Source: Pedobacter jeongneungensis (GTDB lineage Bacteria; Bacteroidota; Bacteroidia; Sphingobacteriales; Sphingobacteriaceae). Taken from it: a stretch of 64,000 nucleotides of DNA. Positions 24,571 through 27,786 of the stretch are shown piece after piece. The DNA is taken from assembly GCF_000633455.1 (NCBI RefSeq), contig NZ_AYMG01000001.1, positions 434,001 through 498,000 on the forward strand, written 5' to 3'. The notes below the pieces were generated by a model, which was given only the letters and a program-made list of their open reading frames with translations, searched no databases and was not told the origin of the DNA. Every line of letters starts with the position of its first letter. Position 1 is the first letter of the stretch. Both the position numbers and the translations under genes were made by a program.

Positions 24571-24806
24571 TTCATTTTAGAGTTTGCAGGGTGCACCCAC
24601 TTTGTTAATAAACCTGATGGCAGCGGCAGCCCCGAAGCATGAGGGCTATAGCAAACAGCAGGGCTGCAGTCTGCCAAGACCATCCTCCTTTCATTTTCAA
24701 AAAATAATGATAACTTCTTACTCACAGTGCTTTTAATACTTTCGAAATTTAGCCACTGCCCAGTCCCGAAACCAAACTTCGAAAGTTATTCCAAAAAAAT
24801 AAAGAA

Positions 24807-24835
24807 AATTTAAAGTAATATTGAGTTTCATCCGT
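24807..24835 (+). promoter_or_regulatory. Putative ECF-dependent promoter, copy 1
   Basis: AATTTAAAGTAA (24807-24818), 12 bp, then TCCGT (24831-24835), 25 bp before the sigma gene. The identical pair with the same spacing occurs at 26206-26234. The distance fits the -35/-10 layout of ECF promoters, so autoregulation by the sigma factor is a reasonable inference. Confidence 0.5.
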
Positions 24836-24860
24836 TTACTGAATTATTAAACAAAATTTA

Positions 24861-25412
24861 GTGCCAACAAACGAACCTCAAAATATCATTTCAACCGTTG
24901 CCAATTATGGTAAGCGCTTGTTCAGTTTCATCCGCGGGAGGGTGAATACAGATGAGGACGCGGAAGATATTTTACAGGATGTTTGGTTCCAGTTAAGCAA
25001 TCAGCCCGAAGTAGGAACGATTGAGCAGATTAGTGGTTGGCTTTACCGTGTGGCAAGAAATAAGATTACCGATAAATACCGGAAACAAAAGGAAGAATCG
25101 CTGGAAGATTTCAGTTTCGAAGGGGAAGATGGCGAAATTAACTTCAAAGAAATTTTATTGGCCGAAACCTACTCGCCGGAAGAAGAAAGTTTAAAAAAAT
25201 TATTCTGGGATCAATTATTCATTGCCCTCGAAGAACTACCTGAAAATCAGCGTTACGTATTTGTGCAGAATGAGCTTGAAGAACGCACGTTTCAGGAACT
25301 GGCAGATGAAAGCGGCGAAAATATCAAAACATTAATATCAAGAAAAGGTTATGCGGTGAAACACCTGCGTAACCGCTTACAAAATTTATATCAGGAATTT
25401 ATTAACTATTAA
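24861..25412 (+). CDS. ECF-type RNA polymerase sigma factor
   Basis: 183 residues from a GTG start. Region 2: LFSFIRGRVNTDEDAEDILQDVWFQL and GWLYRVARNKITDKYRKQ. Region 4: LEELPENQRYVFVQNELEERTFQELADESGENIKTLISRKGYAVKHLRNRL. It is followed 10 bp later by a small two-segment membrane protein that may be its anti-sigma or target. A two-part motif upstream is repeated before the small-protein/Hsp20 cluster at 26322, suggesting that this factor controls itself and that cluster. Confidence 0.92.
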   Translation: MPTNEPQNIISTVANYGKRLFSFIRGRVNTDEDAEDILQDVWFQLSNQPEVGTIEQISGWLYRVARNKITDKYRKQKEESLEDFSFEGEDGEINFKEILLAETYSPEEESLKKLFWDQLFIALEELPENQRYVFVQNELEERTFQELADESGENIKTLISRKGYAVKHLRNRLQNLYQEFINY

Positions 25413-25422
25413 ATTTGCAGAC

Positions 25423-25776
25423 ATGATGAATAGAAATTTTAATCGACGCAAGAAATTTATTTTCTTTTTACCCGTAGCCGTACTTATTGCTGCGGTTTTG
25501 GGGTATGTGGTTATGTTTTTATGGAACTGGATTTTACCTGAGGTGGCACATGCAGGCAAACTAAATTATTGGCAGGCGCTGGGCTTACTGGTACTTTGCA
25601 GGTTGCTCTTCGGTAATTTTAAAAAAGGTGGTCATGACGGGCATAACGGTTTCCGTGAGCGGGCGAGGAGCATGCGTGCCAAATGGGAAACCATGAATGA
25701 TGAGGAACGGGTAAAATTTAAAGAAGAATATAAACGAAGGTGTGGCGGTTGGGGCCACCATCGCAATAAAGAATAG
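25423..25776 (+). CDS. Small two-segment membrane protein with His/Gly-rich tail
   Basis: 117 residues. A basic start (MMNRNFNRRKKF), membrane segments at about 13-34 and 47-63, then a charged cytoplasmic tail with GGHDGHNG, a helical RERARSMRAKWETMNDEERVKFKEEYKRR stretch and a Gly/His end (CGGWGHHRNKE). Part of the tail resembles the charged helices of Spy/CpxP-like or heavy-metal sensor proteins only in general style. It is co-transcribed with the ECF sigma gene and may be its membrane-bound regulator. Function unknown. Confidence 0.75.
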   Translation: MMNRNFNRRKKFIFFLPVAVLIAAVLGYVVMFLWNWILPEVAHAGKLNYWQALGLLVLCRLLFGNFKKGGHDGHNGFRERARSMRAKWETMNDEERVKFKEEYKRRCGGWGHHRNKE

Positions 25777-25778
25777 TT

Positions 25779-25809
25779 AAAAGCTCCGGAGAAATTCGGA
25801 GCTTTTTTG
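25779..25809 (+). terminator. Rho-independent terminator
   Basis: AAAGCTCCG, loop, CGGAGCTTTTTTG directly after the small membrane protein gene; closes the sigma-factor transcript. Confidence 0.85.
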
Positions 25810-25838
25810 TTTTATTACCCGATCATTCTGAGAGGTAT

Positions 25839-25927
25839 CGTCATTGCTAGGAGGAACGACGAAGCAATCTTACAACGATCGCTGCTATAACTAAAGCATT
25901 AAGATTGCTTCGTGCCTCGCAATGACG
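25839..25927. repeat. REP-like repeat, GTCATTGC type
   Basis: CGTCATTGCTAGGAGGAACGACGAAGCAATCTTA-type left arm and TAAGATTGCTTCGTGCCTCGCAATGACG-type right arm form an 89-bp imperfect inverted repeat between two genes. Confidence 0.75.
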
Positions 25928-26014
25928 ACCTATTTATTGTCTCACTAATCAACAAGTTAATCTACTAAAAAGATCCTTCACTACGCTACAATAGACAGAA
26001 TCCATTAGCACGGC

Positions 26015-26083
26015 CGTCATTCCCGCGCAGGCGGGAATCTTAAAGCGCTTGCATTACGATTCCCAATCGAGTTGGGAATGACG
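26015..26083. repeat. REP-like repeat, GTCATTCCC type
   Basis: CGTCATTCCCGCGCAGGCGGGAATCT faces GATTCCCAATCGAGTTGGGAATGACG: outer inverted arms with an internal hairpin on each side. The same class occurs at 44659-44742. With the preceding repeat it fills most of the gap 25810-26200. Confidence 0.75.
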
Positions 26084-26205
26084 ATCTCACGCAGCCTATC
26101 ATTTTGCCAAAAAGCACTGTCTTTTATATTGATTTTATGAAATAATTATTCCTCAGGATGACATAACTACGGGATATTCCTCAATAAACTAAAAAAAATC
26201 AAAAT

Positions 26206-26234
26206 AATTTAAAGTAAAAATAAAGCTGCTCCGT
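26206..26234 (+). promoter_or_regulatory. Putative ECF-dependent promoter, copy 2
   Basis: AATTTAAAGTAA (26206-26217), 12 bp, TCCGT (26230-26234), identical in sequence and spacing to the element before the ECF sigma gene at 24807-24835. It lies 87 bp before the first gene of the small-protein/Hsp20 cluster. Confidence 0.5.
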
Positions 26235-26321
26235 CTTCCTATATAAATAACGAAAATAACAGTATTGGTGCTTCAACTCATTTACAGTGAATTGTTTACC
26301 AATCTTTAAAAAGATAAGAAG

Positions 26322-26588
26322 ATGAAAAAAATATTAAAAGCTATAGGATTTGGGATCGTATTAGGTGCAACCGCTTTCTTTATCCCGTTTGTATTCAAAT
26401 TTATATTGGCCTTTGTACTGATCGGTTTTATGTTCAGGGCATTTGCCGGCAGAAGACGTCATTATTTCCACAGCCGGTATAATGGTTTCGAAAACCATTT
26501 CAACCCGATTGTACCCATTGATAACCAATGGTACAAACCAACCGTACAAAGTAACGGAACCCTTAACCACATCAACGTAAATTATTAA
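26322..26588 (+). CDS. Small membrane protein
   Basis: 88 residues. A glycine-containing hydrophobic stretch (about 8-40, probably two short helices) is followed by RRRHYFHSRYNGFENHF and a polar tail. It is the first gene of a tight cluster (3-4 bp to the next two genes). It has no recognisable domain. Its shared upstream motif with the ECF sigma gene makes it a likely stress-induced envelope protein (inference). Confidence 0.65.
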   Translation: MKKILKAIGFGIVLGATAFFIPFVFKFILAFVLIGFMFRAFAGRRRHYFHSRYNGFENHFNPIVPIDNQWYKPTVQSNGTLNHINVNY

Positions 26589-26829: not shown

Positions 26830-27219
26830 ATGTCGCAGGTACTTTTTTTAAGCGATCCATCTCAGGCTGATGTAAGTCCGATTTTGGGTATGGCCAACGA
26901 CCTGATTACCCGAGGGGAAAAGGTTACCTTTTTTAGTTCGGATGAATTTAAGGGGCCTATAGAAGAAATGGGCGCCGACTTTAAAGCTTATAATCAGGAG
27001 CTGAATGTTTTTCAACGGAATGATGAAAACGATGAAGAAAAACCGAAATCGGGATTGATCAGTGCCTTATTGGAGCCCATGAAGTTTATCGATGATATTT
27101 TGGTGCAGATAAGGGGTTTAAAATTTGATTATGCCGTTTTTTCGCCAGCTTATCCTTATGCAAACATCATAACCCAACTATTGGGGATCCCAAAAACCGA
27201 GCAGGCAGTTATCAATTAA
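26830..27219 (+). pseudogene. N-terminal part of a UGT/MGT-type glycosyltransferase (truncated or stand-alone)
   Basis: 129 residues that look like the first third of a GT1 macrolide-type glycosyltransferase: MSQVLFLSDPSQADVSPILGMANDLITRGEKVTFF, EEMGADFKAYN and FDYAVFSPAYPYANIITQLLGIP. The usual family length is near 400 residues, and the C-terminal donor-sugar half is absent. After the stop at 27217-27219 no frame resumes it; the Hsp20 gene starts 53 bp on. It is either a remnant or a domain reused as a small protein. The tight spacing to its upstream neighbour and an intact frame leave the second option open. Confidence 0.6.
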
Positions 27220-27747: not shown

Positions 27748-27786
27748 AGCCTCAATTGATTAATGCAGTTGGGGCTATTTTATTTT
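27748..27786 (+). terminator. Probable terminator after hsp20
   Basis: AGCCTCAATTG, loop, CAGTTGGGGCT followed by ATTTTATTTT: imperfect stem with T-rich tail. Confidence 0.5.

Follow-up and report, generated by a model that had tools for sequence, protein, structure and literature searches.

An ECF sigma factor and a conserved two-part promoter element predicted to connect it with a small-protein/Hsp20 cluster in Pedobacter and other Bacteroidota

In the window analysed here, a stretch of 64,000 nucleotides from Pedobacter jeongneungensis, the gene for an ECF-type sigma factor and a downstream cluster encoding small proteins and an Hsp20 chaperone are each preceded by a copy of the same two-part element, TTTAAAGTAAW-N13-CGTYTWC, in which CGT begins 14 bases after TTTAAAGTAA. 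The two copies, designated P1 and P2, are very probably promoters of a regulon belonging to the ECF sigma factor encoded at 24861-25412, and we hold with slightly greater confidence still, from the comparative evidence laid out below, that this neighbouring sigma factor itself reads both sites. The features concerned are the following:

24809..24839, plus strand: predicted promoter P1 (TTTAAAGTAATATTGAGTTTCATCCGTTTAC), autoregulatory and ECF-type, of the sigma operon; exact match to the element, with conservation
24861..25412, plus strand: ECF-type RNA polymerase sigma factor, 183 aa, GTG start; supported by Pfam, NCBIfam and orthologues
25423..25776, plus strand: partner of 117 aa with two predicted membrane helices, by its adjacency to the ECF gene a putative cognate regulator in the membrane (anti-sigma or co-regulator)
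25779..25806, plus strand: intrinsic terminator ending the sigma operon; 12-pair stem and T-rich tail
26208..26238, plus strand: predicted promoter P2 (TTTAAAGTAAAAATAAAGCTGCTCCGTCTTC) of the small-protein/Hsp20 cluster; exact match to the element, with conservation
26322..26588, plus strand: 88-aa small membrane protein, first cluster gene; conserved position after P2
26592..26825, plus strand: probable exported protein of 77 aa with a hydrophobic N-terminus and a tail rich in His; conserved second gene
26830..27219, plus strand: half glycosyltransferase of MGT type (129 aa), comprising just the N-terminal domain; NCBIfam TIGR01426
27273..27725, plus strand: Hsp20/alpha-crystallin small heat shock protein, 150 aa, His/Gly-rich N-terminus; Pfam HSP20
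27748..27776, plus strand: intrinsic terminator after Hsp20; terminator prediction

The first-pass annotation of this DNA had described the element as AATTTAAAGTAA-N12-TCCGT, and exact copies of that pattern are indeed present on the plus strand at 24807-24835 and 26206-26234, the first ending 25 bp short of the GTG start (24861) and the second 87 bp short of the ATG (26322). These are the sole two copies in the window and also the only exact ones in the whole 6.7 Mb genome. Its relaxed matches are background, because up to three mismatches yield 49 matches genome-wide versus 95 for the reversed pattern, i.e., no excess. On the window alone, it went too far to call such a pair unlikely by chance: comparable two-part repeats within 2 kb were observed in 12 of 60 order-1 and 15 of 60 order-4 Markov-simulated windows, and the real window also contains other comparable two-part repeats. 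By itself, the pair in the window is suggestive only, and certainty comes from cross-species conservation. As to the wording of the motif, the element is real, but conservation does not extend to the "TC" of TCCGT, and on the other side the conserved -10 part continues beyond CGT. In its refined form the motif has three exact copies and one single-mismatch copy in its own genome, every one of them upstream of a gene, and is thus not randomly spread there.

Conservation was assessed across ECF orthologue loci, 43 of them of the Pedobacter type and 37 from other Bacteroidota, mostly of the Dyadobacter and Chitinophagales types. A P1-type motif lies ahead of the ECF gene, about 50-54 bp 5' of its start codon, in all 43 Pedobacter loci, and a second copy stands before the first cluster gene in every one of the 37 Pedobacter loci that hold cluster genes. 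P2 is missing from all five loci which lack the cluster and have enough contig (L062, L063, L070, L071 and L073); the contig of L068 stops at the ECF gene. At another locus (L072), the half glycosyltransferase is the only cluster gene left and the motif is found approximately 65 bp upstream of it. The corresponding figures for other Bacteroidota are 30/37 and 23/37, and conservation of the element thus holds ahead of the orthologues of either gene. In the P1 sites of these other Bacteroidota the mean information reaches 1.64 bits in TTTAAAGTAA and 2.0 in CGT, compared with 0.16 bits per column for the 5' flank and 0.34 for the spacer, a count in which CGT was demanded by the site definition and flank and spacer were free. 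The arrangement of promoter plus cluster recurs in Dyadobacter and Chitinophagales. Some Bacteroidota are without a clear promoter match: the spacing in Hymenobacter is off by one, and several loci recovered with the profile of the two-helix partner score poorly.

The sigma factor itself matches the Pfam Sigma70_r2 model (E 3e-11), with region 4 slightly under the Pfam cut-off (23.0 vs 24.1), and NCBIfam TIGR02937 (sigma70-ECF) at 63.9 bits versus a cut-off of 42.9. Possession of regions 2 and 4 only, within about 180 aa, places it among the ECF sigma factors (sigma-70 group 4), as does the two-part promoter conserved 5' of its gene, autoregulation being common, if not universal, in this group. 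Identity with the PRK12513 or SigZ equivalogs was rejected, the NCBIfam scores of 90.9 vs 206 and 77.2 vs 212 bits falling below the cut-offs. Just 5' of the sigma operon, at 24606-24669, there is a sub-threshold match to the Flavo-1 RNA (33.4 bits, gathering score 42, E 1.7e-4); no RNA family exceeded its gathering score in the window.

The gene of the 117-aa partner starts 10 bp after the ECF gene, and its product comprises a two-helix core, LWNxILP...WQAxGLLxLCRxLFG, and a charged tail, RxKWxxMxxEERxKFKxExxxRCG. The partner matches no Pfam or NCBIfam family above cut-off, and neither it nor its homologues gave a match there to an anti-sigma (ASD/ZAS) domain, such that the partner falls outside the canonical anti-sigma factors as these libraries define them; sequence searches of the PDB with the partner and with the 76-aa protein discussed below returned nothing credible. 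The predicted structure is helical at low confidence (pLDDT 63, pTM 0.27), and the charge distribution, the sole basis for assigning a topology, points to a hairpin with both ends cytoplasmic. Among phage families, the membrane-hairpin part also matches PHROG 2169 at E 6e-12, a family labelled "membrane protein" in the moron/host takeover category, and PHROG 705 at E 1e-8. A phylum-wide search with the partner profile gave matches in 44 of 296 genomes, and a homologous ECF gene adjoins the partner in all 29 loci that were fetched (the window's own excluded), at one of them in reverse order. Further, in Pantoea, Caballeronia and Burkholderia the partner again has a homologous ECF (41-44% identity) as its neighbour, and CGTCTAC or CGTCTTC occurs upstream there at an equal distance from an AATAW-type -35. 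A cognate regulator would be expected to stay paired with its ECF in this way, whatever the gene order or the phylum.

On this basis we lean towards the partner being an inhibitor of the sigma factor, rather than an activator or accessory. An appreciable, if lesser, share of probability goes to its being an accessory or effector co-produced with the sigma factor, for instance a membrane-stress effector, in which case control of the sigma factor would lie in its own transcription or in proteolysis. Such a role would agree with the want of a recognisable anti-sigma domain, and the product of the first cluster gene is built along related lines, with a membrane segment that is joined in three Bacteroidota bins by a similar KYKNMSEEERKAF..NRCG tail, which suggests that both proteins could be effectors. 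However, the partner is linked to the ECF almost without exception, even where the gene order or the phylum differs, whereas the other genes vary in their presence; such a pattern would be expected of a cognate regulator. Returning to the inhibitor reading, there is perhaps an even chance that the partner represents a new type of anti-sigma factor of very small size, in which a membrane hairpin would act as the sensor and a short cytoplasmic helical tail would bind sigma. From Bacteroidota to Beta- and Gammaproteobacteria, such a factor would be conserved together with a single ECF group and the CGTCTWC promoter of that group, and its role in Bacteroidota would be to control an Hsp20/small-protein membrane stress regulon.

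The two operons are set apart by terminators, one behind the two-helix gene and one behind Hsp20, and the cluster therefore needs a promoter of its own, P2; no terminator was found within the cluster on the plus strand. Between the sigma-operon terminator and P2, at 25840-26090, lies palindromic extragenic repeat DNA (GTCATTGC...GCAATGAC, ...CCCGCGCAGGCGGG...), and such repeats probably account for the variable P1-P2 distance among relatives. The gene for the 88-aa protein is the first after P2 across Pedobacter, Dyadobacter and Chitinophagales, with a dN/dS of about 0.1, and in three loci (L092, L108 and L109) its product ends with a tail, YKNMSEEERKAFMQKYGNRCGW, resembling that of the sigma partner, a likeness from which target and regulator may share a binding element. 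The 77-aa gene is second in the cluster in Pedobacter, in Dyadobacter L098 and in Chitinophagales. Hsp20 family membership of the last gene follows from its alpha-crystallin domain (PF00011, E 1.5e-16, residues 50-150); the cluster-type Hsp20 is present in 33 of 90 genomes of the genus, all 33 of which have the ECF. In Chitinophagales (L083, L088) and Dyadobacter L098 the gene order is small membrane protein, exported His-rich protein, Hsp20, and the half glycosyltransferase is a Pedobacter-specific insertion into the operon. It covers positions 7-118 of 393 in TIGR01426 (66 bits vs a cut-off of 260) and hence is not a full two-domain MGT of about 390-400 aa; full-length relatives are seen at L069 (406 aa) and, under the same motif, at L160 (399 aa). 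Some 35 Pedobacter species nonetheless retain the half form, 126-130 aa long, with a dN/dS of 0.05-0.08 denoting strong purifying selection, and it has lost the SHGHVNP motif of the full-length glycosyltransferases (here SQADVSP). We know of no stress role for either the half glycosyltransferase or the 76-aa protein.

At the level of whole genomes, the exact motif is present in 35 of the 36 Pedobacter-genus genomes with an ECF orthologue and in none of the 54 without one (Fisher p 3e-24, uncorrected for relatedness), and in 18 genomes of other Bacteroidota the exact matches are located at the ECF locus. Divergent Pedobacter homologues of the sigma factor (49-53% identity) keep CGTCT and have a -35 altered to about TGAAATGTTT, which is why their genomes are without the exact motif; the changed -35 is consistent with co-evolution of promoter and sigma factor. 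These patterns bear on whether the sites might be real promoters or operators read by another regulator, either a paralogous ECF or an activator, with the neighbouring ECF merely one of the targets. Pedobacter genomes hold many other ECFs, a paralogue of which could read the same sites, and the 76-aa gene of several species has a different ECF gene as its divergently oriented neighbour. However, the confinement of exact copies to genomes with the ECF orthologue, together with a -35 shift as would be expected of promoter-sigma co-evolution, makes this alternative improbable.

Recognition by the neighbouring sigma factor would extend to sites beyond the two operons. The third exact copy of the motif in the own genome lies 58 bp 5' of a 76-aa gene, and the single-mismatch copy about 106 bp 5' of an ABC transporter gene. 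In a search started from the ~76-aa protein, with the motif sought within 160 bp at up to 2 mismatches, 29 of 30 genes had it at 50-91 bp, in several unrelated neighbourhoods (control regions: 4-8); the 30th, without a motif of its own, is third in an operon of ECF, two-helix protein and 76-aa protein. The ~76-aa family (MISVFKTN...; L141, L242-L271), for which no match was found in Pfam, NCBIfam or PDB, occurs in most Pedobacter genomes at varying positions, with the ECF promoter on the copies most like the own-genome protein. Separately, in several Pedobacter species (L161, L170 and L175) the motif precedes the gene of a 56-aa small membrane protein by about 270 bp, making that gene a possible further target. 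A chance match of two AT-rich intergenic stretches, of the kind that the simulated 64 kb windows also contain (12/60 and 15/60), is refuted by the conservation of both sites, without their flanks, across genera and orders and by the 29/30 result for the ~76-aa genes, and its probability is negligible.

The original reading, that the sigma factor probably drives both itself and the cluster, is accordingly supported: neither of the outcomes that would have refuted it, a random spread of the motif or a lack of conservation ahead of the two genes, was observed. The use of the sites is inferred from their co-distribution and the autoregulatory architecture. Under the mechanism we propose, RNA polymerase carrying the ECF sigma would recognise TTTAAAGTAAW as the -35 region and CGTYTWC as the -10. 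From P1, the sigma factor would transcribe its own gene and that of the partner, amounting to positive autoregulation, and from P2 an operon of two small membrane or exported proteins, the half glycosyltransferase and the Hsp20 chaperone; the scattered ~76-aa gene and, in some species, the ABC transporter would be transcribed as well. The 117-aa partner would most likely keep the sigma factor inactive at the inner membrane via its charged C-terminal tail, and membrane or protein-folding stress would lead the partner to free it, although envelope or proteotoxic stress as the inducing signal is a conjecture that could equally well go either way. The system offers a testable regulon for one of the many uncharacterised Bacteroidota ECF factors, complete with a promoter that is defined, a set of targets and a regulator candidate, and connects Hsp20 to a dedicated ECF sigma. 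It also points to an unannotated family of small membrane proteins which seems to accompany sigma factors in more than one phylum.

In the searchable open literature, outside which most subscription papers lie, no description of an ECF/two-helix/Hsp20 module was found. The system resembles SigR-1/SigH-1 (ECF114) of B. thetaiotaomicron in that these too are stress-related Bacteroidota ECFs with inferred regulons; Hsp20 is absent from the text of that paper, and the non-canonical ECF -10 discussed there is TGTT (PMC12596196). It is also like EcfO-Reo and Das-Dma (ECF21, with dual membrane-spanning anti-sigma factors) of Bacteroides/Phocaeicola, in each of which a Bacteroidota ECF is paired with a membrane regulator next to it and has a stress regulon of small size (PMC13114119, PMC9308784, PMC13088901). 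Dma and Reo consist of an N-terminal sigma-binding domain, a tether and a C-terminal outer-membrane beta-barrel (PMC13088901). Identity with these pairs was rejected, the partner here being a helical protein of 117 aa with neither the domains nor the length of Dma/Reo.

The layout is further like that of the RpoE-RseA-type pairs, in which an ECF gene is followed by a membrane protein gene, with an autoregulatory promoter and a small regulon of the envelope or folding type. Unlike RseA, the partner here has just 117 aa and two predicted helices, without a recognised anti-sigma domain or a large periplasmic sensor. In promoter terms, autoregulated pairs of an ECF and a membrane anti-sigma factor such as RpoE-RseA use a -10 with a CGTC-like core, likewise seen here, whereas their -35 is of the GAAC type and the -35 of the present element is the AT-rich TTTAAAGTAA.
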